DNA of 31,463 bases, from positions 1 through 31,463 of IMG/VR virus record IMGVR_UViG_3300047546_001528; one strand, given 5' to 3'. Positions 1 through 16,408 of the stretch are shown here, piece by piece; positions within the stretch are counted from its first letter, which is position 1, and each line of letters starts with the position of its first letter. The stretch is from a virus. Under the pieces are notes generated by a model. It saw nothing but the letters and a program-made list of their open reading frames with translations, was not told the DNA's origin and did no database searches. The position numbers and the translations under genes are program-made.

Positions 1-16
1 CTTCTCTTATGTACTG

Positions 17-45
17 ATTATAACATGGATTCAGGGTGTCTAATA
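17..45 (-). promoter_or_regulatory. Leftward promoter P0 (weak -35, 11-bp repeats upstream)
   Basis: On the minus strand a perfect TATAAT (17-22) is followed by CAGTACATA, the same downstream sequence as three other promoters in this region. At a 17-bp spacing the -35 position reads TATTAG, far from TTGACA, and it lies inside the last of four 11-bp repeats (40-83). This suggests a promoter that depends on a protein bound to the repeats. It would drive a gene beyond the left edge. Confidence 0.7.
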
Positions 46-83
46 TGATAAATACCTGATAAATACCTGATATTTACCTGATA
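40..83 (-). repeat. Four tandem 11-bp repeats upstream of P0
   Basis: Read on the minus strand, the array is TATCAGGTAAA, TATCAGGTATT, TATCAGGTATT, TATCATATTAG with no gaps. The 11-bp period puts every copy on one face of the helix. The same family of units lies directly upstream of three other leftward promoters (372-404, 709-752, 1512-1533), so this is a likely operator or activator site rather than a chance repeat. Confidence 0.85.
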
Positions 84-87
84 CGTA

Positions 88-112
88 GGGGGTAGGGGGT
101 CCCCCTACCCCC
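88..112. repeat. G-rich palindrome a (12-bp arms)
   Basis: GGGGGTAGGGGG, a single T, then its exact reverse complement. An identical 25-nt palindrome recurs at 420-444 and 1270-1294, and left-arm-only versions occur at 768-781 and 1549-1560. Here it sits between the 3' end of the 52-aa gene (140-298) and the P0 repeats, so it may end the leftward transcript. There is no U-tract, so a classic intrinsic terminator is not certain. Confidence 0.8.
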
Positions 113-139
113 AGGTGTAAAGACTTTTGCTGACTACTG

Positions 140-298
140 CTACTTTTCGCCGTGGGCAATCTTTAACAGTTCGGCAAATTCCTTTTCAAACTTGGCTTGA
201 GCCTTTGGAGACAAAGCCATTGGCTTGAAGTGAGCGGGCTTCTTTTGGAACTTACCCGCTTGGAATCCAGAGGGATGACGATGAATCTTCTTGTGCAT
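140..298 (-). CDS. Small basic hypothetical protein (52 aa)
   Basis: Translating the minus strand from ATG at 298 gives 52 residues beginning MHKKIHRHPSGFQAGKFQ and ending in TAG at 140. GGAG lies eight bases upstream of the ATG. The first half is rich in Lys, His and Pro, and the second half (residues 30-50) looks like a short amphipathic helix. A TTGACA-N17-TATAAT promoter lies about 40 bp upstream (339-367), so this is a stand-alone single-gene unit. I do not recognise the family. Small basic proteins made from strong promoters are often early phage host-takeover factors, but that is inference. Confidence 0.72.
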   Translation of the reverse strand: MHKKIHRHPSGFQAGKFQKKPAHFKPMALSPKAQAKFEKEFAELLKIAHGEK

Positions 299-338
299 AT
301 TTGATGCTCCTTGAGTCTGCTATCTATCTTATATACTG

Positions 339-367
339 ATTATAACCTGTGTCAGCAACAATGTCAA
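339..367 (-). promoter_or_regulatory. Leftward promoter P1 (TTGACA-N17-TATAAT)
   Basis: Perfect -35 (362-367) and -10 (339-344) hexamers with a 17-bp spacer on the minus strand, followed by CAGTATATA. Three 11-bp repeats (372-404) abut it upstream. It drives the 52-aa gene at 140-298; the start site is expected near 332. Confidence 0.9.
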
Positions 368-371
368 GGGA

Positions 372-404
372 GTTTTATGAGAAATTCATGAGGATTACAT
401 GAGA
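372..404 (-). repeat. Three tandem 11-bp repeats upstream of P1
   Basis: Minus-strand units TCTCATGTAAT, CCTCATGAATT, TCTCATAAAAC. The last ends four bases before the -35 hexamer. The TCA core at unit positions 3-5 is shared by all 13 units of the family. Confidence 0.82.
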
Positions 405-419
405 AAGTGTTAGTGTGTA

Positions 420-466
420 GGGGGTAGGGGGTCCCCCTACCCCCAAGTGTAAAGTGTTTACACTTG
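420..466. repeat. G-rich palindrome b plus adjacent 10-bp hairpin
   Basis: 420-444 is an exact copy of the palindrome at 88-112. Sharing its edge, 444-453 and 457-466 form a second perfect stem (CAAGTGTAAA with a 3-nt loop). Both lie just after the stop codon of the 56-aa gene, in the direction of transcription, and would form a tandem structure at the transcript's 3' end. Confidence 0.75.
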
Positions 467-475
467 AGGTTGGTT

Positions 476-646
476 CTAGAAGTGGCGGACTTCCTTGAGA
501 ACCTCAACGCAGGACTGAACGATGCCGACGATAAACCGCCCGAACATACCGACCATGCGGAACAGAACGATGACTGCCTTGAGAACGAGCATGATGGGCA
601 ACATGAGAATCAGGGCGATGAGGCGGGTCACTTGTGATGAGTACAT
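476..646 (-). CDS. Small membrane peptide (56 aa)
   Basis: ATG at 646 on the minus strand, preceded by AAGGAG at seven bases, opens a 56-residue frame ending in TAG at 476. Residues 8-29 (LIALILMLPIMLVLKAVIVLF) are almost wholly hydrophobic, and residues 31-48 form a second, weaker hydrophobic stretch with Gly and Phe. Predicted: one or two membrane helices with a charged C-terminus (KEVRHF). It is the only gene of the unit driven by promoter P2 (676-704). No family recognised. A membrane-acting early peptide, for example in superinfection exclusion, would fit, but nothing shows it directly. The opposite-strand frame over the same bases has no ribosome site and looks spurious. Confidence 0.75.
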   Translation of the reverse strand: MYSSQVTRLIALILMLPIMLVLKAVIVLFRMVGMFGRFIVGIVQSCVEVLKEVRHF

Positions 647-675
647 TGACAACTCCTTAACTAACTTATGTACTG

Positions 676-704
676 ATTATAACCGGTTTTTGATTCGCTG
701 TCAA
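676..704 (-). promoter_or_regulatory. Leftward promoter P2 (TTGACA-N17-TATAAT)
   Basis: Perfect consensus hexamers (-35 at 699-704, -10 at 676-681) with a 17-bp spacer, followed by the conserved CAGTACATA. Four 11-bp repeats (709-752) lie immediately upstream. It drives the 56-aa membrane peptide. Confidence 0.9.
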
Positions 705-708
705 GAGA

Positions 709-752
709 GTTTTATGAGAATTACCTGATAATTTCATGATACGCACATGAGA
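709..752 (-). repeat. Four tandem 11-bp repeats upstream of P2
   Basis: Minus-strand units TCTCATGTGCG, TATCATGAAAT, TATCAGGTAAT, TCTCATAAAAC, gapless, ending four bases before the -35. They mix the TATCAGG form of P0 with the TCTCATG form of P1 and P3, which links all four arrays. A half copy of the G-rich palindrome (768-781) lies just upstream. Confidence 0.82.
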
Positions 753-787
753 AAGTGCCCTTGCGTAGGGGGGTAGGGGGGTGTCCC

Positions 788-1267
788 AGTCCTATTTTGA
801 ATTTTAGTTTTAAATTTTAAATTTTAATTTTAGGTTTAATTTTAGGTTTTTTTTATTTCTCGTTTAAAGTTTTATTTACAGTTTCCCACTTTTATTTGTG
901 ATTCTAAATAGTAACATTGATTCTGTATAGTTTCCTAAGTTAGATGCACAGTTGAAATTAGTTTTCAATTTGTACTTTTAATTTCAATCTGTATTGTAAT
1001 TCTACTTTTGAATAAAAAGCCGCACTGTGTTTATCTGGCGAGTAGTTTGTACCATACTTACTAGGCTATACAAGTATGTAGTAAAGTCTATACTCGATTT
1101 CTATTTTCAAATTTATGTTTTTGGATTGTGGATTTGGATTATATTGCGCCGCTGTTTTCATTTGAAATTAACTCGCCCGCTTTTTATTTATCTACGCTTC
1201 ACACAATTATACACATACTCAATACACATTAATACAATATACACCACATAAGTAAGTGACCAGTCAA
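788..1267. other. AT-rich stretch without a convincing gene
   Basis: No frame with a ribosome site is visible on either strand. 800-850 holds short tandem variants of AAAATTAAACCT (minus strand). Similar T-rich near-repeats containing TTTATGTTTTTG occur near 1110 and 1325. The 74-codon plus-strand frame at 1027-1251 starts with GTG, lacks a Shine-Dalgarno sequence and has the composition of random AT-rich DNA. It may be an untranslated leader or a melting region, but nothing specific supports either. Confidence 0.5.
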
Positions 1268-1269
1268 TA

Positions 1270-1294
1270 GGGGGTAGGGGGTCCCCCTACCCCC
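1270..1294. repeat. G-rich palindrome c (12-bp arms)
   Basis: Third exact copy of the 25-nt palindrome. It lies about 80 bp beyond the end of the tRNA-like RNA (1372-1472) in the direction of transcription. Unlike copies a and b, it is not followed by 11-bp repeats and a promoter. Confidence 0.8.
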
Positions 1295-1371
1295 ACGAAC
1301 ACGCTAGCCTATTTTGATTTTTGAATTTATGTTTTTGAATTTAATTTTGATTTTATTTTGAGATTTCGTTC

Positions 1372-1472
1372 AAAAAAGAAATAGAGTAGGGATTCGAACC
1401 CTCGCATTGAACCTTGCCTCGACTTTGAGTTGGTGAGTCGCCTTGACTGCTTACTCATCTCTATTTCTTTAT
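1372..1472 (-). ncRNA. tRNA-like small RNA (class II size, anticodon arm not canonical)
   Basis: On the minus strand, AATAGAG (1459-1465) pairs with CTCTATT (1380-1386), and pairing extends outward to 12 bp (AAAGAAATAGAG with CTCTATTTCTTT). Next to the 3' strand is a good T-arm, AGGG-TTCGAAT-CCCT. The 86-nt core has the length of a class II (Leu/Ser) tRNA. GAGT and ACTC could form a D-stem with a large loop. The anticodon arm fails: the loop CTCAAAG (anticodon CAA, Leu) has no 5-bp stem, and the best alternative stem (CGACT/AGTCG) closes an 11-nt loop. No CCA is encoded. Promoter P3 would start transcription at about the first base of the long stem, and six U residues follow its other strand. 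It could be a decayed tRNA or a tRNA mimic. Confidence 0.55.
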
Positions 1473-1478
1473 ATACTG

Positions 1479-1507
1479 ATTATAGCACGGCTACAGAGTG
1501 CTGTCAA
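1479..1507 (-). promoter_or_regulatory. Leftward promoter P3 (TTGACA-N17-TATAAT)
   Basis: Perfect -35 (1502-1507) and -10 (1479-1484) with a 17-bp spacer, followed by CAGTATATA. The expected start near 1472 coincides with the 5' end of the tRNA-like RNA, so there is essentially no leader. Confidence 0.9.
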
Positions 1508-1511
1508 GTAA

Positions 1512-1533
1512 GTTTTATGAGAATCACATGAGA
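1512..1533 (-). repeat. Two tandem 11-bp repeats upstream of P3
   Basis: Minus-strand units TCTCATGTGAT and TCTCATAAAAC, ending four bases before the -35 as at P1 and P2. This is the shortest array of the family. A half palindrome (1549-1560) lies upstream. Confidence 0.78.
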
Positions 1534-1611
1534 AAGTGCTGAGACGTAGGGGGTAGGGGGTCTCCTTGCCTGAAAATACCCGCCGATTATTTCTGGAATA
1601 ATCTCAAAATC

Positions 1612-1692
1612 AAAAAGGGGCATAATATAGTGCCCATTGGATTAAGTGCCTTTTTATTAGGGGGAGAGGGGGTAGCCTGTTTCCAGGCTACC
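1612..1692 (-). terminator. Two further hairpins beyond the HNH terminator
   Basis: Minus strand: GGTAGCCTG-GAAA-CAGGCTACC (1671-1692) is a 9-bp stem with a GAAA tetraloop. Further along, GGGCA/TGCCC (1618-1622 with 1631-1635) is followed by CTTTTT, resembling a weak intrinsic terminator. Together with the strong terminator at 1718-1754 they insulate the leftward small-gene region. Confidence 0.5.
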
Positions 1693-1717
1693 CAACTAAC
1701 GACGTCAACGCAACGAC

Positions 1718-1754
1718 AAAAAAAAAAGCCCCCTGCCCCCTAGGGGGCAGGGGG
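1718..1754 (-). terminator. Strong intrinsic terminator after the HNH gene
   Basis: Minus strand: a 12-bp stem CCCCCTGCCCCC / GGGGGCAGGGGG (1743-1754 with 1729-1740), then C and ten T residues (1718-1727). It lies 12 bp beyond the HNH stop codon. Textbook rho-independent form. Confidence 0.92.
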
Positions 1755-1765
1755 GGGGCTAGCCC

Positions 1766-2236
1766 CTAGTAGAAGTATACCGGTTGTGGTAACTTGAACT
1801 TTTTCAACCATGCCACTTGCTCGTTGGTGAGTTTGGCACGTTTGGCACGATTACAGATGCCACACTCAGCGATTGCGTTATGCATTACGTTGCCGTCCCA
1901 CCCTAGCATACCACCCAACGAGCAAGGAAACACATGACCAATATCGGCGTGTGAGTAGCCGTGTTTGGGGCACTCTACATAAAGTAGCAAGTTAGCACGC
2001 TTCATCGCTTTTTCACGACTATCTTTTTGGTGCCCGACAAAGTCAGTAGCCTTGATAAACGCGTTAGAACCACACAACGAACCAAAGTCTTCATGATGGA
2101 TAACCGGTAAAGCACGGATAATTTTGCGTGCTTCAATATGATAATCGTAGAACGGATGTGCTTCATCACGTATTGAAGCGATGCCACACAATGCATGAAG
2201 AGTGAGAGCCACGAGAGACGGTTCACGAGTTGACAT
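1766..2236 (-). CDS. HNH endonuclease (156 aa)
   Basis: The C-terminal half carries an HNH/McrA-type core: GHVFPCSLGG (His101, with the Pro and Gly-Gly that follow the first His), Asn116/Asn120 in the middle, and ECGICNRAKR (Cys125, Cys128). Cys89 and His92 (VECPKH) could complete a structural zinc site with that CxxC. Residues 1-85 are not recognised. Such genes in phages are free-standing homing endonucleases, packaging nucleases or host-DNA nickases. Here it is a separate leftward unit with its own promoter (2278-2305) and a strong terminator, and it is not next to the terminase, so a free-standing mobile or host-directed role seems more likely than a packaging one. AGGA precedes the ATG. 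A 74-codon frame on the same strand inside it is a shadow. Confidence 0.82.
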   Translation of the reverse strand: MSTREPSLVALTLHALCGIASIRDEAHPFYDYHIEARKIIRALPVIHHEDFGSLCGSNAFIKATDFVGHQKDSREKAMKRANLLLYVECPKHGYSHADIGHVFPCSLGGMLGWDGNVMHNAIAECGICNRAKRAKLTNEQVAWLKKFKLPQPVYFY

Positions 2237-2277
2237 AATCCATATCCTGTCTACTATCGAAAAATAATCCTACAATC

Positions 2278-2305
2278 ACTATAACACAAACAAAAAAAAA
2301 TGCAA
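2278..2305 (-). promoter_or_regulatory. Probable sigma-70 promoter for the HNH gene
   Basis: Minus strand TTGCAT (2300-2305), 16-bp spacer rich in T, TATAGT (2278-2283). The predicted start is about 35 bp before the HNH start codon. It has no 11-bp repeats and no late motif. Confidence 0.6.
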
Positions 2306-2351
2306 GTGATTTATGCACCAATTTTAGAACAATTTTCAAGACACGAAAATG

Positions 2352-2387
2352 TATATATGAGTAACTTGAGTAAAATACTCATATATA
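2352..2387. repeat. 12-bp inverted repeat between HNH and the moron-like cassette
   Basis: TATATATGAGTA (2352-2363) and its exact reverse complement (2376-2387) with a 12-nt spacer that itself contains TGAGTA. It is 50 bp upstream of the HNH promoter, a place for an operator, or it could form a weak hairpin at the end of the leftward cassette. A second inverted repeat, CCCCCA/TGGGGG (2457-2462 with 2482-2487), lies between it and the cassette but has no U-tract. The rest of 2237-2605 shows no gene. Confidence 0.5.
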
Positions 2388-2605
2388 GTGTACGTCAACA
2401 TACAATACAACATATATACAGTATTGCACAAATAGCCCCACTATGCCACTCAGGAGCCCCCAGGATTGACGATATACATCATGGGGGTGTACAAATATGG
2501 TAGCAGTTTTTTCGACAGCCATCTCCCACACACCCTTAGAAATTTTTAAAAGGCTCCCTTTGGTTTTACAACATTACATAACGGAACACAACAGAACCCA
2601 CCGTG

Positions 2606-2896
2606 TTACACCTGACTCACATGGGTAATCACAAATCTTCCGCTCCCAGAAATCATCCCTTTGAGAATGACATGGATATTGCCATGTTTAATAATATATA
2701 CACAGGAATCAAGCCCTTCTTTAAACATATTCTTTGCATCGAATCCGTTTAACTGACGAAACTCATGAAGAAATGCCAAATTCTCAGGCGATGGTGACTT
2801 AATTACATCGCTGTACACAACTTCTGCACCCATCTTTTGCGCCACCCGTGTCAAATCATCATGCGTATATACATAGAAAAAATTATCGTAAGACAT
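2606..2896 (-). CDS. Hypothetical protein (96 aa), last gene of the cassette
   Basis: The start codon overlaps the stop of the upstream membrane-protein gene at 2896, so the two are translationally coupled. The protein is soluble, with no signal or membrane segment. It contains an N-terminal stretch YDNFFYVYTHDDLTRVAQKM resembling a helix-strand unit and a C-terminal beta-rich part (SCVYIIKHGNIHVILKGMI). No family recognised. It ends a seven-gene chain that begins with the BMP lipoprotein gene. Confidence 0.6.
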   Translation of the reverse strand: MSYDNFFYVYTHDDLTRVAQKMGAEVVYSDVIKSPSPENLAFLHEFRQLNGFDAKNMFKEGLDSCVYIIKHGNIHVILKGMISGSGRFVITHVSQV

Positions 2897-3264
2897 TATA
2901 ATCGCTCCTTAATATAATCTATTAAAAATGTAGCCAGAATAAACGCAAAGAAAATGCTGCCTACCTCGCCCACGACAAAACTCGTAGTATCGAAGTAGGC
3001 TAAGAGAAACCCTGCGAGAATGGTATACCGTGAAAAGAACAACGGTACCTCCAGAAGAAATATTGGGTCATTCCGGTAATCCGGTAGCCAGTCATACACT
3101 AGGGAGTAGTAAACCGAGACCCCTGTAGCAAGTATGGTAAGGAGTAGGATGCCGTAAGTTGGTAAGCCTCCTCCGTAGACGTAAGTATAAAGGTTATTGA
3201 TAAATCGCTCGTATTTCGTATTACTAAATCTTGCGCTTGCCCACTGAGTCCAGTTTCGTTCCAT
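2896..3264 (-). CDS. Membrane protein with three predicted helices (122 aa)
   Basis: Hydrophobic segments at about residues 36-56 (GILLLTILATGVSVYYSLVY), 68-90 and 98-117, with a charged N-terminus (MERNWTQW) and a C-terminus ending in KERL. AGGA lies ten bases before the ATG. Its first 55 codons (166 bp) overlap the C-terminal part of the VanW gene in another frame. Because the first membrane helix lies within the overlap and a ribosome site precedes the ATG, I keep the long start, although a shorter start cannot be excluded. No family recognised. It may be an anchoring partner of the VanW protein, an inference from the overlap only. Confidence 0.55.
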   Translation of the reverse strand: MERNWTQWASARFSNTKYERFINNLYTYVYGGGLPTYGILLLTILATGVSVYYSLVYDWLPDYRNDPIFLLEVPLFFSRYTILAGFLLAYFDTTSFVVGEVGSIFFAFILATFLIDYIKERL

Positions 3265-3644
3265 ATAGATACATTGTCCTGCCTTTCTACCCCAAGTAAT
3301 GGGGTGCTATGTCTCACAAACGTTCTTTCAAGATTCAGATGCCTCGCAAGTTCCGCATAGCGTGATGCAAGGTCACACCAGCCCCCGCCGTAGATACCAT
3401 AGGCATATACGAGGGGGTACTGGTCAGGGTTACCGACTGTCTCATTGAACGACCATTCCTGTCCTGGCGGGATGGTTACCGTGGCGAGTACAGGAAGTAT
3501 TGGATTAATATTCTCGTCTATAATTGTGCCCTTTCGTAAGGGGCTTGCGTCTACCTCATACCGGCGGGGAAATATCCCCACGCTAAGTAGGAGAATGAAT
3601 AATATGTATACAGTCATTATGCCGGAGCGTGTAACTAAATCCAT
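3099..3644 (-). CDS. VanW-domain protein with N-terminal membrane anchor (181 aa)
   Basis: Residues 11-24 form a single hydrophobic segment (signal anchor or signal peptide). Residues 52-165 match the VanW family: PPGQEWSFNETVG, then GIYGGGWCDLASRYAELAR (the GGG-x-C core; Cys90), LNLERTFVRHS, DNVSIW and DLVIRNTSDLSITF. VanW proteins are envelope-associated, known from vancomycin-resistance clusters, and of uncertain biochemical function. An upstream in-frame ATG at 3680 has no ribosome site. The ATG at 3644 has a weak AGAAG, and the one at 3617 has none. The N-terminus overlaps the previous gene and the C-terminus overlaps the membrane-protein gene. A VanW protein in a phage suggests modification or masking of the host surface (inference). 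Confidence 0.72.
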   Translation of the reverse strand: MDLVTRSGIMTVYILFILLLSVGIFPRRYEVDASPLRKGTIIDENINPILPVLATVTIPPGQEWSFNETVGNPDQYPLVYAYGIYGGGWCDLASRYAELARHLNLERTFVRHSTPLLGVERQDNVSIWNETGLSGQAQDLVIRNTSDLSITFILTSTEEAYQLTASYSLPYLLQGSRFTTP

Positions 3645-3858
3645 ATTTCTTCTGAAGATGATTCCAGTATTTTTCTTCATCTGGTATTGTCACCGTGATA
3701 TAGATACGAAATATGATAAAACTCGTGTTACTGCTTGTGTCAATTTCCACAGGTACCAACGAAAGTTTTTGTAGTTCATTTCGTATCTTCCTTATCTTTT
3801 CGGGGGCGTCCACGTTTCTTACTGGGAGAAAGAGCGTAATACTGCTGTAACTCTTCAT
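3583..3858 (-). CDS. Hypothetical protein (91 aa) overlapping both neighbours
   Basis: ATG at 3858 has GGAG six bases upstream, giving MKSYSSITLFLPVRN and a mixed alpha/beta protein: strand, helix (EKIRKIRNELQKL), strand, strand (SFIIFRIYITVTI), helix (EKYWNHLQKKYG), an ACT- or ferredoxin-like alternation. The ATG at 3912 also has an AGGAG at nine bases, so a longer form with about 110 residues is possible. It overlaps the AT-hook gene upstream by at least 83 bp and the VanW gene downstream by up to 62 bp. No function recognised. Which start is used is uncertain. Confidence 0.5.
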   Translation of the reverse strand: MKSYSSITLFLPVRNVDAPEKIRKIRNELQKLSLVPVEIDTSSNTSFIIFRIYITVTIPDEEKYWNHLQKKYGFSYTLRHNDCIHIIHSPT

Positions 3859-3973
3859 CACTGGCTCCGATATACTTTGCGGGACTGTTGTCTGCGTTTC
3901 GGGCTTCTCCATTACCAATTACTCCTACAACTTGTATTTTTCCGTCACTCCCTACGACTTCATAGTATTTCAT
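3776..3973 (-). CDS. Small AT-hook protein (65 aa)
   Basis: The ATG at 3973 is preceded by AGGAGAGAA, an excellent ribosome site. The N-terminus (MKYYEVVGSDGKIQVVGVIG) is beta-like. The C-terminus is KKRGRPRKDKEDTK, with the GRP core of an AT-hook that inserts in the minor groove of AT-rich DNA. The protein is otherwise acidic and short. It overlaps the zinc-ribbon gene by 14 bp. It may bind DNA or act as an anti-host factor. The only clear domain is the hook. Confidence 0.62.
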   Translation of the reverse strand: MKYYEVVGSDGKIQVVGVIGNGEARNADNSPAKYIGASDEELQQYYALSPSKKRGRPRKDKEDTK

Positions 3974-4169
3974 TTCTCTCCTCTATAATGCGTAATAAGT
4001 CCTCGTTATCAAGCGAGTCAATAACCATCGAGTATATACCTGTGTAGCACAATATACAGAGTGAGAGTGGAAGTATACCGATATAACCAAGCATACCCCA
4101 CTCCTCTTCAGCATATTCAATGCTACAGAGAGCGCACGGCTTTCCGTGCGGGTTAAGAGGGTCATTCAC
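3960..4169 (-). CDS. Small protein with two CxxC pairs and a hydrophobic centre (69 aa)
   Basis: Cys12/Cys15 (PCALC) and Cys38/Cys41 (LCILC) form a CxxC-22-CxxC zinc-ribbon-like layout. The second pair, however, lies in a very hydrophobic run (GYIGILPLSLCILCYTGIYSMVI, residues 28-50) that could be a membrane helix. The C-terminus is charged (DNEDLLRIIEERNEIL). It starts two bases after the RNase H-like gene, and its end overlaps the AT-hook gene by 14 bp. Shine-Dalgarno is weak. No family recognised. Confidence 0.55.
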   Translation of the reverse strand: MNDPLNPHGKPCALCSIEYAEEEWGMLGYIGILPLSLCILCYTGIYSMVIDSLDNEDLLRIIEERNEIL

Positions 4170-4171
4170 TG

Positions 4172-4555
4172 TTAGTGTCCTAATATTTCTTTAATTATTA
4201 CACGATTTACTCGTGTGTATTTGTAGCCACCAAACGCATTAAGGCGTTCTCGTATTCTCTCTGCGAGATAGTTATATACCTCACGGGTCGATACTTGATT
4301 CTTTGTAACCGTGGTATGTACTGTTGAACAGTCTCCGTACACCTTTAAGAATACCTTAGAAATATCTGGCGTGTTGATGTGCAACCAGCGAAGCGCACGG
4401 AGCAATACCGTGAACTCCGCTTGGTTACTATCACCAATTCCATCCATCTCATACACTTGATGGTGCCGTAGACATTCTTCCTTTATGCTGTCATAGTAGA
4501 CTTTAAAACTACCATGCACAGTTCCCCCATCAAAATAGAGATGAATCGTTTTCAT
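4172..4555 (-). CDS. RNase H-like protein (127 aa), incomplete active site
   Basis: The frame has the order of a type I ribonuclease H/RVT_3 domain: LYFDGG (Asp9), NQAEFTVLLRALRWL (Glu47) and VYGDCSTV (Asp75), the first three metal-binding residues. The C-terminal R..N..AD helix that carries the fourth acidic residue is not recognisable: the protein ends RVNRVIIKEILGH, with no Asp. It may be a reduced-activity RNase H or a binding protein. RNase H would remove RNA primers or R-loops. The start overlaps the stop of the BMP lipoprotein gene (ATGA type), so the two are co-translated. Confidence 0.72.
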   Translation of the reverse strand: MKTIHLYFDGGTVHGSFKVYYDSIKEECLRHHQVYEMDGIGDSNQAEFTVLLRALRWLHINTPDISKVFLKVYGDCSTVHTTVTKNQVSTREVYNYLAERIRERLNAFGGYKYTRVNRVIIKEILGH

Positions 4556-5712
4556 TACTTACCTGATGATTGTCCGTCAATACCCTGTAGCAACTGGGTT
4601 TGATACCAAATCAGCTTGTCCGTAACTTCCTGACCTGCACCCACGAACGTGCTTCCATCTTGGTAGAGCAAGGGACCAGTCCACAAGTTCAAGCCACCCT
4701 TAAGATTTTCAATGAACAAGTCCAGTTTATCGTTCTGGTCAAATGCGTTGTTGCGCAAGAAACCAATACCACTGGTCGTGCTCAAGTTGTCAAAATCAGG
4801 CGAGAACCAAATAAACTGTTGCTTCCACGTACCGTTGATATGCTCTTCAACCATCTTGCTGTACTCTGGGTACCAGTTGAAGTATGGAACACCGATACAT
4901 GAATTCACACCACGGTTACACGCACTCTGGAAGTCGTAAGGAATACTCTTTACTGCCTTACCCTCCATGTGTGCCTTTTCCACTTCGACAACCACTTCAG
5001 GAGTGTCGATACCTGACATAATCACATCGTAACCCTGTGTCATGAAGTCTTTCGTGACCAACGTGGGGTCGAGTGTAACACCAGGAATGTTAAACCAGAA
5101 ACCAATCCATTTCACGCTAAATACCAGTTTACTTAGGTCTTCTGCTTTGTATGAAGTCCAGCAGTAGCGTGCGCCGAGATATGCGGCATTGACCAAACGC
5201 CGTGTTTCATCATTCACCAGAGGACCAACGTATGCAATCTTACCGGTCTGTGAAGAAAGAGCAGCTGCACAACCAGCAATCATCTTTCCATACTCCATCT
5301 TACCCATGATGTTACTCAAGTTTGCAGGAGCCTTACCAGTCATCACGTCATCCCCTGATGCGTGTACAAAAGTGACCTCCGGATGTGCCTTTGCAGCTTC
5401 ACGAATCGAATCCTTAAAGTCATCCGAGTTTGCAATCACCAAAGTAGCACCCTGAGAAATGAGTTCCCCTGCTACCTGCTCTGCGCTCACATTTGGGCGG
5501 TCGGCTGGATTTACCTTATCCACGTAGATAAAATTAATACCCTTTTCATCTTCGATACGCTTCATCGCATCATAGTGAGCCTGACTCCAACCACCGTCAT
5601 TCTTTGGACCAACCAGAATCATACCAACAGTCTCTTTTGGTTTTTCTGCCGTTCCACAAGCAGTGACAAACACCATCGCAAGAACAAGCAACAAGTTTCT
5701 AAAAATACCCAT
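4555..5712 (-). CDS. BMP/PnrA-family substrate-binding lipoprotein (385 aa)
   Basis: The N-terminus is a lipoprotein signal: MGIFRNLLLVLAMVFVTAC, lipobox VTAC, Cys19. The mature protein matches the BMP (PnrA/TmpC) family of ABC-transporter binding proteins: VGMILVGPKNDGGWSQAHYDAM at the first strand, SDDFKDSIREAAKAHPEVTF, then the YVGP, YDVIMSGIDTP and GVPYFNW regions. PnrA/TmpC members bind purine nucleosides, and others bind sugars or thiamine. No permease or ATPase gene is in the window, so it would have to use a host transporter or act by itself. It has a strong promoter of its own (5754-5782) with no late motif or 11-bp repeats, and AGGAG before the ATG. The first transcribed bases include GTCAG-GGAA-CTGAC, a tetraloop hairpin. 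This is a typical moron or auxiliary metabolic gene. Confidence 0.86.
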   Translation of the reverse strand: MGIFRNLLLVLAMVFVTACGTAEKPKETVGMILVGPKNDGGWSQAHYDAMKRIEDEKGINFIYVDKVNPADRPNVSAEQVAGELISQGATLVIANSDDFKDSIREAAKAHPEVTFVHASGDDVMTGKAPANLSNIMGKMEYGKMIAGCAAALSSQTGKIAYVGPLVNDETRRLVNAAYLGARYCWTSYKAEDLSKLVFSVKWIGFWFNIPGVTLDPTLVTKDFMTQGYDVIMSGIDTPEVVVEVEKAHMEGKAVKSIPYDFQSACNRGVNSCIGVPYFNWYPEYSKMVEEHINGTWKQQFIWFSPDFDNLSTTSGIGFLRNNAFDQNDKLDLFIENLKGGLNLWTGPLLYQDGSTFVGAGQEVTDKLIWYQTQLLQGIDGQSSGK

Positions 5713-5753
5713 ACTTTCTCCTATTTGTATATTGTCAGTTCCCTGACTTTCTT

Positions 5754-5782
5754 AGTATACCACAGGATAATATGCTTGTCAA
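5754..5782 (-). promoter_or_regulatory. Sigma-70 promoter of the lipoprotein cassette (TTGACA-N17-TATACT)
   Basis: Minus strand -35 at 5777-5782, 17-bp spacer, TATACT at 5754-5759, start expected near 5747. It abuts the stop codon of the 37-aa gene (5785). It lacks the phage-specific elements seen at other promoters, so the host polymerase alone should use it, possibly at all times. Confidence 0.85.
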
Positions 5783-5784
5783 AT

Positions 5785-5898
5785 CTACTCAAAACTCTCC
5801 ATCACGTAGAATACTTTTAGGCGTTCCACAATGTCAAGAAAGTAATCCGCAATTACAAGTACAGCGGCGATAAATACAATACGTTCAATCCACTTCAT
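5785..5898 (-). CDS. Small membrane peptide (37 aa)
   Basis: Minus-strand ATG at 5898 with AGGAG seven bases upstream opens MKWIERIVFIAAVLVIADYF and ends at TAG 5785. Residues 7-20 are hydrophobic, flanked by Lys/Arg and acidic residues, giving a single-span peptide. It lies after the hairpin that follows the holin candidate and before the lipoprotein promoter, with no promoter of its own, so it must rely on read-through of the late lysis transcript. A small lysis accessory is plausible, but no family is recognised. Confidence 0.65.
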   Translation of the reverse strand: MKWIERIVFIAAVLVIADYFLDIVERLKVFYVMESFE

Positions 5899-5915
5899 TT
5901 TTTTCTCCTAAATAG

Positions 5916-5942
5916 AAAAGTAACCCCCTTTCGGGGGTTACT
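5916..5942 (-). terminator. Intrinsic terminator after the lysis genes
   Basis: Minus strand: 10-bp stem AGTAACCCCC / GGGGGTTACT (5933-5942 with 5919-5928), GAAA loop, then TTTTC. It lies 7 bp beyond the holin-candidate stop. The short U-run suggests partial termination, consistent with read-through into the 37-aa gene. Confidence 0.75.
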
Positions 5943-5948
5943 GAATTA

Positions 5949-6371
5949 TTAACCATCTGCTTTTGTTACGTCAACGCTAATGCTAAGTTGCTCTGGCTTT
6001 GTTCTGTCCATAATGACTTTTGCCAGTTCTGGGTCTACAATAGCCTCAATGCTAGCGGCGATGCTGTCTTTCGACTTGTTAACAAGCGCATCTTGCGGGA
6101 ACAGAGTAGCGTGCAAGTTCAATGCTCTAAATGCTGTGTGGTACACTGCCTGAGAGATAGTGAGAATTGCGGCGAAGTTTGCAAGAGTGGCTTGCGGTGT
6201 TACCTTACCGTCGATAAGAGCCATCAGGGTTGCTACAATCACGGAGAGAGCGGCGGCAAGACCAAACTTGTAGTATGGTTTCCACGATACTCTCTGCAAG
6301 TAAAGAACCACAAAGGGAATAATTGTACCGGTAATAAACTGTAGAATAACCTTTAGTGAATCAGTGTCCAT
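5949..6371 (-). CDS. Holin candidate (140 aa, three membrane helices)
   Basis: Hydrophobic segments at about residues 7-27 (VILQFITGTIIPFVVLYLQ), 36-53 and 62-81, then a polar C-terminal tail of about 55 residues. Size, helix number and position (end of a lysis module next to an amidase) fit a class I holin or a holin-like membrane protein. No family motif proves it. It starts directly after the coiled-coil membrane protein stop. Confidence 0.65.
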   Translation of the reverse strand: MDTDSLKVILQFITGTIIPFVVLYLQRVSWKPYYKFGLAAALSVIVATLMALIDGKVTPQATLANFAAILTISQAVYHTAFRALNLHATLFPQDALVNKSKDSIAASIEAIVDPELAKVIMDRTKPEQLSISVDVTKADG

Positions 6372-6743
6372 TTAGTTGTCTCCTAATTTTGTGAGTAGTT
6401 CAGCCATACGTCTTTCTAGTACATCCATATCAGCGAGACGCTGTTCTAGATAAGAAAGACGAGAACGCATACTGTCACGTTCTTTCTGTAATTCGGTAAT
6501 ATCTATCATAAGTTTATCACGTTCTTTGCGCAACTCTTGATTTTCTGCGTGCAGTGTTTTATTCTCCTGCTCTAAGGCTGAAATTCGAGACGAGTGATGC
6601 TGTACAAGTTGTAGTAGGTCGGTGCGTAAATCACTTTCCGCATCTTGATTTCTACTCCGTAAAGCAACAATTGAGCCGACGATACCTGCAACAGCACCCG
6701 CAATTGCAGAAATAATACTTGTGGAATCTAACTGGTTCGACAT
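6372..6743 (-). CDS. Membrane-anchored coiled-coil protein (123 aa)
   Basis: Residues 9-28 form one Gly/Ala-rich membrane helix (IISAIAGAVAGIVGSIVAL), followed by Arg-rich positive residues and a long heptad region (about 45-118: ISALEQENKTLHAENQELRK and onward to the end). This shape, together with its position between amidase and holin candidate, suggests a lysis accessory or i-spanin-like protein. A lipobox partner is not seen. The stop and start overlap its neighbours on both sides by one to a few bases. Confidence 0.65.
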   Translation of the reverse strand: MSNQLDSTSIISAIAGAVAGIVGSIVALRSRNQDAESDLRTDLLQLVQHHSSRISALEQENKTLHAENQELRKERDKLMIDITELQKERDSMRSRLSYLEQRLADMDVLERRMAELLTKLGDN

Positions 6744-7447
6744 TAGGACCTCGCTTTAAGAAGTGGTTCAAAGATATAGCCCAATCCTACTGCATATCTC
6801 CAACGACTAATCCCGTTTATATTCTCACCAAAGAAAATATCCCCATCGAAAGACATTACCGGAGTATTGGCTTCGAGCGTAACAACAACCTTTGAGTCTC
6901 TTGTTGCAGACTGCCGTATGTTCGCTCGTGAAGTTGTATAGTACATTGTATATGGCAAAAATCGCATCTTTTTCCAGTGTGCAAATCCAGCATCGGTGAC
7001 TCCACTGGGGTCTATTTTACGACCTGCGGGAGCAGCAATCTGTCTGTGCATCACTGGTGACAACTTTGGGTTAAAGTTAGCCAACTTTGTAATTTCTTCC
7101 CACATGAGACCGTTCCAAAAACCCTCTAAGGGGCTGAAGTGAACTTCAACCCCTATGGCAGATGGGTTTGCAGTGTCTGGCGTAAACGTTTTACCGGTAT
7201 GCCAAGCCATATATTCTTTTGGGTCTAGTAACTGAAACGTATCACCAGTTTTGGACACGAGGTAATGTGCGCTTACATCTTTCGACATAATCAAAAAGTT
7301 TCGCTCTGCTTCAATGCTACTATTTGCCCTGCCATTTGTCGTATGAATAACAAGTGTTTTGTATTCGATACTTTTATTGCGAAGTGAGTACCCCTCATTC
7401 GGTTTGAGGTGCTTGTTCTTCTGGTACTCCTCCTTGATTATTATCAT
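6743..7447 (-). CDS. Endolysin: N-acetylmuramoyl-L-alanine amidase with SH3-like domain (234 aa)
   Basis: Amidase_2 (PGRP/T7 lysozyme) domain at about residues 30-150: LVIHTTNG (zinc His35), SAHYLVSKTGDTFQLL, AWHTG, AIGVEVH, VMHRQIAAPAGRKIDPS (zinc His134, catalytic Lys144, zinc-position Asp146 instead of Cys). The C-terminal 65 residues (YYTTSRANIRQSATRDSKVV) form a bacterial SH3-type wall-binding domain. An in-frame extension to 7678 lies inside the portal gene, has shadow-like composition and is not used: GGAGGA stands eight bases before the ATG at 7447. The gene overlaps the end of the portal gene by 53 bp. It cuts the amide bond between MurNAc and the stem peptide. Confidence 0.88.
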   Translation of the reverse strand: MIIIKEEYQKNKHLKPNEGYSLRNKSIEYKTLVIHTTNGRANSSIEAERNFLIMSKDVSAHYLVSKTGDTFQLLDPKEYMAWHTGKTFTPDTANPSAIGVEVHFSPLEGFWNGLMWEEITKLANFNPKLSPVMHRQIAAPAGRKIDPSGVTDAGFAHWKKMRFLPYTMYYTTSRANIRQSATRDSKVVVTLEANTPVMSFDGDIFFGENINGISRWRYAVGLGYIFEPLLKARS

Positions 7448-8810
7448 TCGTAAGTTCCTCCAATGAATTGCTTTCCGTGTCAATTTTCTCCTGCTCGTCT
7501 TCGTAGGTAGTACCGTAAAGCGAGGCAATTGTGTCCTTAGATATAGCACCAATCTGCTGTGCTTGAATAGCCAGTTGAGTAAGTGCCGTAATATCTTGAA
7601 GCGCAATCGGACTAAATGACGGCTTTGGGTGCCACGGAAACTCATTTTTAATTGCGAGTTCCTTATAAAATCCCTCAACCCACATTAACAGTGCATCACG
7701 CATATCATTCAATGTAGAAATTGGTCCAAGACTAGCCGTCTTATTATCAGACGCATTACTGCGTAGTGTTTCTCCAACAGCAAGAATTCTCGGGAATCCA
7801 AGTGCAAGAAAAATATCTGCATTTGGCTCAATGTACTTTGCTTCGTTCAGCAACGCATCCAGTGGTGGCGTAACCCAGTCTACCTGAATTGTATGATTAG
7901 TGAAGAAGTTAAACACTCTATCACCGGTGACTGCCGCTGTAGCCAAAACGGTCTCAGTTGACTTAATATCATCGTCTGTTGCAGGGAATTTATCCGAGCC
8001 AATTCTTACATGACGCAGAAGTTCACTTGCTCTAGCGGCAATACTTCTATCCATTATCTTAAGATAGTATTTATGCTGGAGTGCAAACAACGCATTTTGC
8101 AAGTATGGCTTTGGATAATCTTCATAAGAACGCAGTCTTCTGTAGATTGGGCGTGCGTTTGGTAACGGAAACATTGTTACGCCCTTTTGCACTGCCCGTA
8201 CATAACTTGGAAACTCTCGTACCAGTTCATTGTACGCCTCTGTATCAACAGAACCATCTCCACGAGTTCCCTTGTTCATGATGAAGTCAACATCTTCTTT
8301 TGGAACTTTCACAAATACACTGCGCTCCATACCTATTGGCTTCTTACGCAGAATAATGTTTTCCGGATTTCTCACCCAAAACGCATTTGGGAAAGAAACA
8401 CGCTTACGTCCTAGTGTTGGGTCAACACGATTACCCATAATAACGCCATACGTTACTTCGGGAATAGCCATGCCATGCAGAATATAATCAAGAGCAACAA
8501 CCTTAAGATACGGTTGAATATAATCTGCCACCGCATCATAAAACTGCACATATGCGTCCGGATTATCTTTATCCTTACGATTACGAAGTTTTGTTACTGC
8601 CATGTCAACCATCCGGTCAACAACCGTACCCGCAATAGTATCTTGCTCGTAAAAATATCTACAGAACTTGATAATCTCATGATACGTGTATTTTTTCGAA
8701 TTGTCAAATGGCATCATTGTGGGGTCGTAATACCCAGCCACAAATTGATTATTCACAAGAAACGGCGACGGCATATATGCTGATGTCGCTTTCGCTAAAG
8801 GTTTGTCCAT
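7395..8810 (-). CDS. Portal protein (471 aa)
   Basis: It lies immediately downstream of the large terminase, and its length is normal for siphovirus portals. Features of the family are seen: an N-terminal part with repeated aromatic and acidic residues, a central region with FPNAFWVRNPENIIL, the crown/stem-like helical part, and NADIFLALGFPRILAVGETLRSNASDNKTA, which resembles the portal segment in which a Gly/Pro turn precedes a Ser/Asn-rich loop. The C-terminal 35 residues are acidic and low in complexity (EQEKIDTESNSLEELTND). The twelve-subunit ring would form the DNA gate at one capsid vertex. The ribosome site GAGGTAACA overlaps the terminase stop. Confidence 0.78.
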   Translation of the reverse strand: MDKPLAKATSAYMPSPFLVNNQFVAGYYDPTMMPFDNSKKYTYHEIIKFCRYFYEQDTIAGTVVDRMVDMAVTKLRNRKDKDNPDAYVQFYDAVADYIQPYLKVVALDYILHGMAIPEVTYGVIMGNRVDPTLGRKRVSFPNAFWVRNPENIILRKKPIGMERSVFVKVPKEDVDFIMNKGTRGDGSVDTEAYNELVREFPSYVRAVQKGVTMFPLPNARPIYRRLRSYEDYPKPYLQNALFALQHKYYLKIMDRSIAARASELLRHVRIGSDKFPATDDDIKSTETVLATAAVTGDRVFNFFTNHTIQVDWVTPPLDALLNEAKYIEPNADIFLALGFPRILAVGETLRSNASDNKTASLGPISTLNDMRDALLMWVEGFYKELAIKNEFPWHPKPSFSPIALQDITALTQLAIQAQQIGAISKDTIASLYGTTYEDEQEKIDTESNSLEELTNDNNQGGVPEEQAPQTE

Positions 8811-8812
8811 TG

Positions 8813-11416
8813 TTACCTCACTGTAGTGTTACCTGCTGGTTTTGCAAGTACAGGTGTGATTGTTGGAGCAATCGCAGTTTTTCCACGGAGTGCATAGATA
8901 AAACAGAGATAACTCGCAAAAATGTGGTCATCATCCGATGCACCGACACCACGTTCATTCATAATATAATAGTGGTCATTACCAGTAATACGCTTTTGGC
9001 GAGTAAGTCTCTCAAGTTGACTTACACCCTCGGTGTCTATTTCAGAAAATAAGAGCGTACCCTCTGTGACCATTCGTGCGATTTCTTTCGAACCCCAACT
9101 GCGAAATACCTCAGTAAGTTCAGTATCGTCGTCTGTTCGACCAACTGACACACGCTCATTAAAAAGCACAGGAATGATTCTTTCAGCATATTTATAAAGT
9201 GTGTACTCCTCCCGACTACAGAGCGACTGGTATATACCAGCACCGCCACCACCGGCACCAACGTCAATTGCAATCTTTGTGGGATTGTAAAACTGCGTCA
9301 GGTAGTGGATAATTGCTTCCTGCTCAGGATAGTCAATTTTTGTAATTCGGTATCTTACCAAAGTAATGTATTTGTTATTTTTTGCTCCGACTACTTGTAT
9401 CACTGTTGGGTCTGAAAAACCAGTATCTATAGAAAAAATAACGTAATCATAACCAGTTATTTTATGTAATTTTAGTACATCCTTGAATTGTCTTCCTTTC
9501 AGTTTGTCGTTATTGGAGTAACGATAACTAAAGAAGTCAACTTGTTCAAGTGTAAACGCATCTCTTGGAATAACTTGGAATGATGCGCTTCCGTGACGAC
9601 CTAGCACTAATTGTTGAAAAATATCTTCTTCGATACCACCATATTTCCGCAGTGCATCATTCCAGTCATCCAGGGTAAAGTATGGATTATTGGGTGATGG
9701 TATGCGATACTTTTTGTACTTCGGGCGGCGAATATCTAAGTCATAGAGCGCACTATTGCGCAATCCATTTGGAACTCCGCAGTATATCTCTTGTATTTTA
9801 GGTTCCCATGTATTAAGTGTAGGTTGCAGCTGATTAAAGGCAGTCATGGGAAATAACTGCATCTCATCCCCAGCGATACGAGGAATATGTAAACCTACCA
9901 AGTTATTACTTTCTTTTGTACCTGCGATACGTGCATTGAAACGATGGTTTCTCGAGCCGAACTTAAAGTCAAGTGTTCCTTTCGAACGATTCACATTGTT
10001 ACCAAGAAAGTCTTTGAGCAGTGGGCTTGTGGTAAATTTTAACACAAGCCGGTCTAGTAGTGGCGTTAACTGATTTGAGTTAGGAGTCACTAATAACTGT
10101 TCCGACGTTTTTGGAAACTCTATGTCATTATTTACAATTTGATATGTAAGCAAGTCCTCAATAATCACCGAATTGTGTACAACAACATAATCTGAAATGT
10201 AGGTCTCATCAGTATAGACGTGAACGGCATACGTGGGCATATTGTAACTGCGGCTGTGTCGGCTAATAATTGGTTCCCAGCGGATATTGTCAGGTGGCTC
10301 GATGTTACTTAAATCAAGATTCACCTTAATTCCTGGGATATTAAACGTAGCCCAAAAACGAAGTGCATTTTCTTTGTCTAAGGTGGTGATTTCCCAAATA
10401 GAAAAATCGCCGCCATAGCCGTATGTCTTTTGCACAACATCTTTTGTCTTCTTACGTACCGTACTGATACCAAAGTACATCAGAACTTCTTGAAACTCTT
10501 TTGTAAAGTTTTCATTTGGTATTCGCAGAGATACCTGGTACCGGTCAAATGTAGCGTACTGGGCAAAGACCGCCTCTAGAAATACCTTAATGTTTTCAAG
10601 GCGTTGATTCTTAATGAAGTCTAGGTTCTGCCGCTTTCGCTCGTTCTTTGTTGTGTTAATACCACATTCTCGCCATAGTTGACGAATGTAGTGTCGAGTT
10701 TGCCCTGTTTTAATGCGGTCAAGGTAGTATCTTCCGTCTTCAATGCGTACCGTAAGGTACATATTCTTAGCAATAAACTCAAGTTCTTCAGCAATTTGTT
10801 TAAATCTGGGTTTTAAGCCCATATAGCCGACCACTTTAACATTGTTAAGAATATCATAACCCATCGCACGTAGCTCGAACCAAGAGAATGTATTATACAC
10901 ACAATGGTCAGTAGGTAACTGATTTGTAACTGCGATTAAGTCACCTATCTTTAAATCACCTGCCACAACAAAACCTCGTGGCGTAAGAATCGGATGATTA
11001 TAGGTACATTCAACTTCCTGTGTCTCGGTCTTGAATTTGTGAAGTTTAGTCCACTTATCTTTGGTAATTGTAGCCCGCCGCTGTCTGAACTTACCATCAG
11101 TTGTGTACGCATACGTAATAAAAGAATCTTTTTTAAGTAACTCTTTTATTGTTTTAAAACCTTCGGTTGTAAATATGCGTGCTGTCGTAGGCTGACATTT
11201 ACCAATAGAACGACCACCGGTAATAACAATATGTTTATTCTGGTCTGTAAGAATTTCTTTCTGGTAGGGTCTGTGCTTAAACTCATCAGAAGACCAGTTG
11301 TTTTTATTCATGTCTGCATTATTTGTTGAGCGCAAAAATTCACTAAACCACACAGGGTCTTCAATAATTTCGAGCAGGGCTAACTCTGAGTCATCAATTT
11401 TCTTCTGTAGAGCCAT
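8813..11416 (-). CDS. terL: Terminase large subunit with an in-frame intein (867 aa; 525 after splicing)
   Basis: The host protein has an ATPase and a nuclease domain. Walker A, GGRSIGK (67-73), is cut by the intein and is completed by Ser416. Walker B is RIAGDE (Asp517-Glu518). The RNase H-like nuclease carries Asp664 (FSIDTGFSDP), Asp718 (AIDVGAGGGG) and Asp828-830 (ASDDDHIFASY). The ATPase drives DNA into the capsid and the nuclease cuts concatemers, docked on the portal encoded next. The intein is described separately. It must splice for the P-loop to form, so packaging depends on splicing. The start overlaps the preceding small-subunit candidate by 23 bp. Confidence 0.93.
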   Translation of the reverse strand: MALQKKIDDSELALLEIIEDPVWFSEFLRSTNNADMNKNNWSSDEFKHRPYQKEILTDQNKHIVITGGRSIGKCQPTTARIFTTEGFKTIKELLKKDSFITYAYTTDGKFRQRRATITKDKWTKLHKFKTETQEVECTYNHPILTPRGFVVAGDLKIGDLIAVTNQLPTDHCVYNTFSWFELRAMGYDILNNVKVVGYMGLKPRFKQIAEELEFIAKNMYLTVRIEDGRYYLDRIKTGQTRHYIRQLWRECGINTTKNERKRQNLDFIKNQRLENIKVFLEAVFAQYATFDRYQVSLRIPNENFTKEFQEVLMYFGISTVRKKTKDVVQKTYGYGGDFSIWEITTLDKENALRFWATFNIPGIKVNLDLSNIEPPDNIRWEPIISRHSRSYNMPTYAVHVYTDETYISDYVVVHNSVIIEDLLTYQIVNNDIEFPKTSEQLLVTPNSNQLTPLLDRLVLKFTTSPLLKDFLGNNVNRSKGTLDFKFGSRNHRFNARIAGTKESNNLVGLHIPRIAGDEMQLFPMTAFNQLQPTLNTWEPKIQEIYCGVPNGLRNSALYDLDIRRPKYKKYRIPSPNNPYFTLDDWNDALRKYGGIEEDIFQQLVLGRHGSASFQVIPRDAFTLEQVDFFSYRYSNNDKLKGRQFKDVLKLHKITGYDYVIFSIDTGFSDPTVIQVVGAKNNKYITLVRYRITKIDYPEQEAIIHYLTQFYNPTKIAIDVGAGGGGAGIYQSLCSREEYTLYKYAERIIPVLFNERVSVGRTDDDTELTEVFRSWGSKEIARMVTEGTLLFSEIDTEGVSQLERLTRQKRITGNDHYYIMNERGVGASDDDHIFASYLCFIYALRGKTAIAPTITPVLAKPAGNTTVR
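10172..11197 (-). mobile_element. Intein in TerL (342 aa, class 1, decayed LAGLIDADG domain)
   Basis: Residues 74-415 of the TerL frame. Block A begins with nucleophile Cys1 (CQPTTARIFT). Block B is ECTYNHPILTPRG with the TxxH-type His. The terminal blocks read YAVHVYTDETYISDYVVVHN with His-Asn at the end, and the +1 extein residue is Ser. The middle holds an endonuclease-like segment: FLEAVFAQYATF, then QVSLRIPNENFTKEFQEVLMYFGI, which resembles the second half of a DOD (LAGLIDADG) homing nuclease, but its Asp-containing motif is lost. The insertion point is inside the P-loop, a common intein site in ATPases. Confidence 0.9.
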
Positions 11417-12044
11417 CCGTGTCCTCCATTATTATAATATCTTCCTCGCTCTCAATCTCAGGAATATCGCTCGACTTAGATGGTTGAACAACTTCATAAA
11501 GATATTTTTTTCTCCACTTATAATCTTTAATATCAAAGAACACTCCATCTGCGGCACTCTTTCGAGTCATAGTAACTCTCTTATTACACTGACTACACTG
11601 CGTCTCGAAATGAAATGCAGTATGCTCCATAACAGGTGCGAATCTTGCCAGTAATATTTTACAATCGGGGCAATAGACTTTGATAAGACGTTTCTCTAGA
11701 AAGTTTTGCGCCGTTACTTTTAGTGTTGTTAGATAACTTGAGATACTATCAGAATTCTCGGATTTACGTGTTTTGCGGTCAAGAGCAAGCGCACGCTCAA
11801 CCTGTAAGTTTCTTTCGATTAGGTCACGAATAGAATTACCGATACGCTGAATCGACTCGATGTTATCCATAATAGAATCAGCCTCAGTTAGTATGAGCAT
11901 CTCTTGTTGCAGACGCTCAATAAGTACCTGATTTTGAATCAGAATCTCTAGATTTGCTCGGTCATTCGGGGAATTAAGGGTTTCTAGGTCATATTTGTCG
12001 CTATAATCCTTTAAAATTTCTTGAAACCGTGATTTTTTGGTCAT
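11394..12044 (-). CDS. Terminase small-subunit candidate with zinc finger (216 aa)
   Basis: Directly upstream of terL and overlapping it by 23 bp, the usual place of the small subunit. Residues 25-95 are predicted helical with heptads. A zinc ribbon follows with Cys125, Cys128 (YCPDC) and Cys150, Cys153 (QCSQC). The C-terminus is strongly acidic (PEIESEEDIIIMED). No sequence match to a named small-terminase family is recognised. A zinc-ribbon DNA recognition factor would fit the role. AAGGAT precedes the ATG. It is the first gene after the leftward late promoter (12097-12125), with a 50-bp leader. Confidence 0.6.
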   Translation of the reverse strand: MTKKSRFQEILKDYSDKYDLETLNSPNDRANLEILIQNQVLIERLQQEMLILTEADSIMDNIESIQRIGNSIRDLIERNLQVERALALDRKTRKSENSDSISSYLTTLKVTAQNFLEKRLIKVYCPDCKILLARFAPVMEHTAFHFETQCSQCNKRVTMTRKSAADGVFFDIKDYKWRKKYLYEVVQPSKSSDIPEIESEEDIIIMEDTDGSTEEN

Positions 12045-12064
12045 AAATTATCCTTAAGACAATA

Positions 12065-12098
12065 GAAAGGGGTAGCATACCCTTAGTAAACTACCCCT
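12065..12098 (-). terminator. Leader hairpin between nrdJ and the packaging genes
   Basis: Minus strand AGGGGTAG (12091-12098) and CTACCCCT (12068-12075), loop of 15, then TTCTATT. It can end transcripts arriving from nrdJ. Because the late promoter just upstream starts at about the first stem base, the same hairpin would cap the late transcript. Confidence 0.55.
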
Positions 12099-12125
12099 CT
12101 ACTATTATACTCTATTTTTGTGTCA
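12097..12125 (-). promoter_or_regulatory. Late promoter L1 (29-bp motif), leftward packaging/lysis genes
   Basis: Minus strand: TGACACAAAAATAG, then AG, then TATAAT (12104-12109), then AGTAGAG. Two other copies in the window (13583-13611 and 16840-16868) agree at 26 of 29 positions. The nrdJ stop codon TGA is the first three bases. No -35 hexamer is found at the sigma-70 distance, so the conserved block directly above the -10 is probably contacted by a phage factor. Downstream: small-subunit candidate, terL, portal, amidase, coiled-coil protein, holin candidate, ending at 5916-5942. Confidence 0.8.
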
Positions 12126-12756: not shown

Positions 12757-12763
12757 CTATTGT

Positions 12764-13447: not shown

Positions 13448-13582
13448 AACTACCTTACCTTTCGATAAGGGTCGGACTATATCATCACATTTCTGTGCTG
13501 TGCGCTTCGAGTACACTTGTACTCTACGACTTACGTCTAGTCTCTGAACCCCATCAGTGATGTGCTAAAGTACCATAAGGTA

Positions 13583-15889: not shown

Positions 15890-15890
15890 A

Positions 15891-16405: not shown

Positions 16406-16408
16406 ATC

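Follow-up and report, generated by a model that had tools for sequence, protein, structure and literature searches.

What does a phage gain from the substrate-binding lipoprotein of an ABC importer when it carries no permease to go with it? The well-known phage-encoded substrate-binding protein (SBP) is cyanophage PstS, which serves for phosphate. The gene considered here belongs to another family, and no published work on phage BMP/PnrA proteins was found in the open-access literature. It lies in a window of 31,463 nucleotides, the whole stretch of DNA that was analysed (positions 1 to 31,463 of IMG/VR record IMGVR_UViG_3300047546_001528), in which an initial annotation had recognized a nucleoside-type lipoprotein and had proposed that it scavenges nucleosides for phage DNA synthesis.

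An intact gene with its own promoter

The gene is read from the minus strand, a detail that we add to the initial annotation, and the locus is made up of the following features:

4172..4555 (minus strand): RNase H-like open reading frame (ORF) of 127 aa, directly downstream of the BMP gene (weak match to NCBIfam NF005822; synteny)
4555..5712 (minus strand): coding sequence of the BMP-family substrate-binding lipoprotein, 385 aa, start at 5712, stop at 4555-4557 (Pfam, fold, phage copies)
5656..5712 (minus strand): signal peptide and lipobox, residues 1-19, MGIFRNLLLVLAMVFVTAC followed by G, with C19 as the lipidation site by sequence
5717..5722 (minus strand): ribosome-binding site AGGAGA, read directly
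5754..5782 (minus strand): the BMP gene's own promoter, TTGACA-N17-TATACT, with an extended -10 TG
5919..5942 (minus strand): intrinsic-terminator-like hairpin, a 10 bp stem followed by a T-rich stretch, after the holin-like gene
5949..7460 (minus strand): upstream lysis cassette of amidase endolysin, coiled-coil protein and holin-like protein (PF01510, synteny)

The earlier description of an intact phage lipoprotein with signal, lipobox and fold is borne out. The 385-aa ORF matches Pfam Bmp (PF02608) with 62.6 bits against a gathering cutoff of 24.1 (E 3.9e-17), and it is predicted to be a surface-anchored lipoprotein, with a lipobox VTAC19 preceding G whose cysteine is invariant across the phage alignment. 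An AlphaFold2 model built from a 50-sequence alignment (pLDDT 93.6, pTM 0.90) displays the full two-lobe periplasmic-binding fold of the BMP group and reaches Z scores of 27-41 against the listed solved BMP-family chains (VIA). The top solved matches are 3s99 and AtzT (Foldseek E about 2.5e-23; VIA Z 41.0 and 40.6, respectively, rmsd 1.9-2.0 over 325 residues), with the nucleoside binders Lbp, BmpD and PnrA ranking next (VIA, Z 33-35), and a profile search agrees with this structural ranking (3s99, E 1e-25; AtzT, 1e-18; BmpA/BmpD, about 1e-4). The gene is under purifying selection, with a dN/dS of 0.075-0.18 among pairs of usable divergence.

A host-type promoter had also been reported ahead of the gene, and this too stands. 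The chance of so good a match within 110 nt is about 0.002, or about 1e-4 when the TG is counted, and a promoter of the same form is found in related phages, 39-49 nt 5' of the BMP gene in L004, L007, L008, L009, L011, L098 and the near-duplicate L002, and about 195 nt 5' of it in L096 and L115; ahead of the gene in L003, L099 and the second phage group described below, no such promoter was found. What did not hold was the statement that this promoter is unlike the phage-specific ones nearby, since six further sigma-70 sites scoring at least 11/12 are present in the window (367, 704, 1507, 15956 and 16405 on the minus strand, 16409 on the plus strand). Sites 367, 704 and 1507 have in common the extension TATAATCAGTAyATAAg, which is absent from the BMP promoter and likewise from sites 15956, 16405 and 16409. 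The BMP promoter is strong and conserved, yet not special within this phage. The divergent sigma-70-type pair at 16405 (minus) and 16409 (plus) divides the window into two directions of transcription.

The hairpin at 5942-5919 sets the lysis cassette apart from the BMP unit. Within the cassette, the amidase is identified by PF01510 and the gene order is supported by synteny, and the putative holin owes its name to its size, its position and an N-terminus that is hydrophobic. Terminator and BMP promoter flank a 37-aa ORF (5785-5898, minus strand; MKWIERIVFIAAVLVIADYFLDIVERLKVFYVMESFE) with a good ribosome-binding site, which, from its sequence, is likely to encode a small membrane protein. Elsewhere in the window, a VanW-like protein (3099-3680, minus strand) has a hydrophobic N-terminal segment, is kept in several related phages, and is possibly a second surface protein.

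The binding pocket and its likely ligand

One of the two nearest solved structures is that of AtzT from Pseudomonas sp. ADP (PDB 6pi5/6pi6/6pii), which binds guanine with a Kd of 110 nM and adenine with one of 2.5 uM, and in which guanine is held by Tyr45, Ser97, Glu165, Trp194 and Asn220 (PMC6834077). The corresponding codons of the phage gene are:

5587..5589 (minus strand): W42, aromatic stacking residue, invariant (AtzT Tyr45, Trp in 3s99; alignments)
5425..5427 (minus strand): S96 (AtzT Ser97, hydrogen bond to guanine; alignment, PMC6834077)
5206..5208 (minus strand): E169 (AtzT Glu165; alignment, PMC6834077)
5095..5097 (minus strand): W206, second stacking residue (AtzT Trp194; alignment, PMC6834077)
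5005..5007 (minus strand): D236 (AtzT Asn220, Asp in 3s99; alignment)

These five residues and D260 are 100% identical in 12 rows of PH1 (the window's phage group, group 1), 6 rows of PH2 (a second, unrelated phage group, group 2) and 77 cellular rows. The two aromatics that would sandwich the base, W42 and W206, occupy the stacking positions, as in both nucleoside and nucleobase binders. The phage protein thus resembles AtzT in its fold (rmsd 2.0 over 325 residues), its aromatic sandwich and its Ser97 and Glu165 positions, and differs from it in overall sequence (24% identity), in the replacement of Asn218 and Asn220 by Gly234 and Asp236 and of Phe98 by Asp, in its lipoprotein anchor, and in being phage-borne with no adjoining permease. 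AtzT has no counterpart to most of the further charged residues that are conserved here (D97, D98, K100, R171). The best profile and fold match, 3s99, is a Brucella BMP protein with adenine modelled in the site; it is also only 24% identical and is bacterial, but it has Trp at position 42 and the pair His/Asp at positions 234 and 236, of which the phage protein shares the Asp, while position 234 is Gly in the window's group and, as in 3s99, His in the second group.

With the nucleoside-binding lipoproteins PnrA, BmpD, BmpA and Lbp, the phage protein has in common the Pfam family, the lipoprotein anchor and the aromatic sandwich, although it is just 13-17% identical to them. In BmpA, Lys242 contacts the ribose (PMC13325309); in a sequence alignment through an intermediate, this lysine apparently falls on Phe278 of the phage protein, and the ribose-engaging Lys of the nucleoside binders is thus apparently replaced.

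The closest cellular proteins, at most 62% identical, come from metagenome-assembled genomes of Roseiflexaceae and other Chloroflexales, followed by Anaerolineales and Desulfobacterota; identity to cellular SBPs reaches 62% for PH1 and 64% for PH2. These relatives sit in operons of the order SBP, ATPase, permease, permease. Near some of the cellular BMP genes are adenine deaminase family genes at 6 loci (a representative matches TIGR01178 with 634 bits against a cutoff of 472), HPRT-like genes adjoining 3 Dehalococcoidia loci, carbamate kinase near 8 loci and a YgeY-family hydrolase near 3, the family names resting on one tested representative each. The uncharacterized SBPs of the Roseiflexaceae and Dehalococcoidia operons are identical to the phage protein at all mapped pocket residues and differ from it in being cellular and part of a complete importer operon.

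Because the nearest structures are AtzT and 3s99, because adenine deaminase and HPRT-like genes are among the neighbors in cells, and because of the apparent Lys to Phe exchange, we predict that the ligand is a purine, and that a nucleobase is likelier than a nucleoside. The label nucleoside-type therefore needs revision, as the closest characterized proteins bind purine bases, and "purine, probably nucleobase" is the better description. In the tree, the expected placement among nucleoside binders was not obtained, the protein lying outside the known nucleoside-binding group, but it does lie beside the purine-base-binding one.

Distribution, origin and probable host

Copies of the BMP protein in other phage contigs are 99-45% identical to that of the window. 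About 17 contigs of group 1 carry the gene, in the order terminase, portal, amidase, coiled-coil, holin-like, BMP, RNase H-like, with a methyltransferase often preceding BMP; in L119 and L098 the gene sits elsewhere in the genome. Within the portal clade of the window (at least 73% identity), it is present in every contig reaching the locus save the ambiguous L116, which ends near the expected BMP position, so that the gene is shared by the window's relatives, as the initial annotation had asked to be checked. In the sister clade (portal identity 52-60%) it is missing, including from the whole 82.6-kb contig G006, with the exception of L003/L147, in which a BMP of 80% identity, together with the RNase H-like gene, occupies a different site in a phage whose portal is just 58% identical; judging by these sequences, the two genes have moved together into a distant phage. 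Group 2 comprises 11 contigs with the BMP gene and is a phage unrelated to group 1, with a portal, a ribonucleotide reductase and a DNA polymerase A of its own. Ribonucleotide reductase and DNA polymerase A are encoded by both groups. A BMP-type ABC ATPase or permease was found neither in the window nor in nine related phage contigs, some of them incomplete, and no purine phosphoribosyltransferase motif was found in the phage segments.

Among 50,697 phage records (INPHARED) there were five BMP hits, each beside a bacterial ABC operon. These (MT836531, MT836066, MT835719, MT839734 and MT835950) were rejected as phage homologues because genes for an ABC ATPase and a permease adjoin each of them, and all five "Bacteriophage sp." fecal contigs look bacterial at the BMP locus. 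A viral structure library held one entry named as PnrA-like, a partial match from Podoviridae sp. ctC2p8 (TM 0.39). The view that such proteins are rare in phages accordingly stands for this family, but not for SBPs in general, which phages are known to carry, as in the case of PstS.

In a careful tree, PH1 is sister to Roseiflexaceae (support 95/94), which points to the donor lineage that had been sought, and PH2 falls within rows of the class Dehalococcoidia (support 100/99). A single phage clade of PH1 and PH2 was rejected (AU p 3.8e-5), and on this phylogeny two unrelated phage groups acquired the BMP gene in independent events, each from a different Chloroflexota lineage. A quick tree had hinted that L099 gained its copy separately and more recently, but this was unsupported (AU p 0.53). 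The virus of the window probably infects freshwater Chloroflexota, and the phylogeny of this gene would point to a Roseiflexaceae host. A search of 158 Roseiflexaceae-class genomes turned up no relative of the group 1 portal, and one of 294 genomes of the candidate host class of group 2 none of the group 2 portal. When window positions 1-18000 were compared as DNA with the same 158 genomes, only the BMP gene itself matched, and no CRISPR spacer match appeared in this comparison, a search not built for spacers. For a segment of a related phage, tRNA genes were among the matches listed to Roseiflexaceae-class genomes: L186 (77.8 kb) encodes tRNA-Arg and tRNA-Met at 2442-2601, and several of their best matches, within the one class compared, lie in genomes that also carry the BMP gene, a weak hint at the host. 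The same phage encodes ThyX (PF02511) at 1088-1768, with RecA, DNA polymerase A and a DnaB-type helicase nearby.

Probable purine import during infection and competing explanations

We consider it reasonably probable that the gene is an auxiliary metabolic gene, whose purine-binding lipoprotein serves a host importer and sustains the purine supply during infection. The phage would make an intact, membrane-anchored protein binding most likely adenine- or guanine-type bases, possibly nucleosides, which would dock on the BMP-type ABC importer of the host (an ATPase and two permeases, all host-encoded), so that purine import could continue while host expression is shut down, and the imported purines would replenish the nucleotides from which phage DNA is made, to the presumed benefit of the phage. 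The two independent acquisitions suggest that infected cells are kept importing DNA building blocks. An orphan, functional-looking SBP with an intact pocket, taken repeatedly from the operon of an importer in the probable host clade, points to a role like that of cyanophage PstS, which was itself acquired from hosts on at least two occasions, the donors belonging to different genera, and which, when phosphate is limiting, is linked to a normal lysis time (PMC10976474). Like PstS, which is thought to use host membrane components, the BMP gene is host-derived by phylogeny, with the importer left behind in what is presumably the host; by this analogy, the orphan SBP would raise uptake or yield when expressed in infection. 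PstS differs in binding phosphate, in its family, in its cyanobacterial hosts and in having an infection phenotype in culture.

The scavenging proposal of the initial annotation, taken as purine import through a host importer, is the best-supported reading, but NrdJ, MazG and Nmad1 are a weak argument for it, since the first two are present even in sister phages that have no BMP gene. If the import reading is true, phages also steer the import of organic building blocks, beyond phosphate, and purine supply may be a bottleneck in these infections; the BMP gene further provides a lead to the hosts of two phage groups that are uncultured.

Superinfection exclusion, which had been offered as the alternative and in which the surface lipoprotein would block or mimic the receptor of competing phages with the BMP fold as a co-opted scaffold, we regard as unlikely. 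Its models are the superinfection-exclusion lipoproteins T5 Llp and TP-J34 Ltp, and also Cor. A surface-anchored sequence, a strong promoter of its own and a place next to the lysis cassette would all suit such a protein, and lipoproteins of this type occur in phages (PMC3952083). A blocker, however, would not need the whole fold and every mapped pocket residue at host-level conservation, nor would one expect its gene to have been taken twice from importer operons; moreover, no integrase was recognized among the phage proteins covered by a non-exhaustive scan, no similar lipoprotein was found in the slot of the BMP-less sister phages, and positive evidence for exclusion did not emerge in this analysis.

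The pocket differences from AtzT (Asn218, Phe98 and the extra charged residues) may instead mean a different purine or even a non-purine ligand, and a role in importing some other small ring compound, such as riboflavin or a B6 vitamer, though quite unlikely, deserves mention. There are weak matches to the SBP, ATPase and permease of the NCBIfam "putative B6 ABC transporter" families, and the riboflavin binder RfuA has the same fold as the phage protein (Z 28.5, VIA); these NCBIfam matches are all far under cutoff, the phage SBP reaching only 31.7 bits where the cutoff is 400, and the pocket residues and purine-gene neighbors favor purines.

Action by binding, without transport, is conceivable in view of the nucleoside-binding SBP P48 of Mycoplasma, which controls the uptake of an ICE in this way (PMC12892991). 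We give little credence to a version in which the lipoprotein, occupied by purines from degraded DNA or the surroundings, acts as a gate at the infected cell's surface, and it seems similarly improbable that such gating excludes other phages or times lysis as a purine-sensing control of infection, a timing role for which the abutting lysis cassette is the point to note. It is very doubtful that the protein is a ligand sensor or DNA-entry factor whose ligand-bound form alters the surface or signalling in favor of DNA transfer or infection, no transport being involved: the lack of a permease in the phage would fit, and P48 is likewise an SBP lipoprotein tied to the fate of a mobile element, but P48 is a chromosomal factor of the recipient, not borne by the element (PMC12892991), and works before DNA entry, whereas the phage gene works after it, and nothing in the window ties the BMP gene to entry or signalling. 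Hardly credible is a passenger gene or assembly chimera without phage function, a general possibility with nothing further in its favor, against which stand the purifying selection, the conserved promoter and the identical synteny in about 17 group 1 contigs, this shared synteny and the 11 contigs of the unrelated group refuting chimerism.

Two further genes of the window are interrupted. The nrdJ gene (12123-15226, minus strand) is split into an N part (13688-15226) and a C part (12123-12767), between which lie a group I intron (RF00028, 13453-13704, 66 bits) and a GIY-YIG ORF (12764-13516), and the large terminase (8813-11416, minus strand) contains an intein-like insert at residues 81-415 (PF14890, slightly below cutoff).
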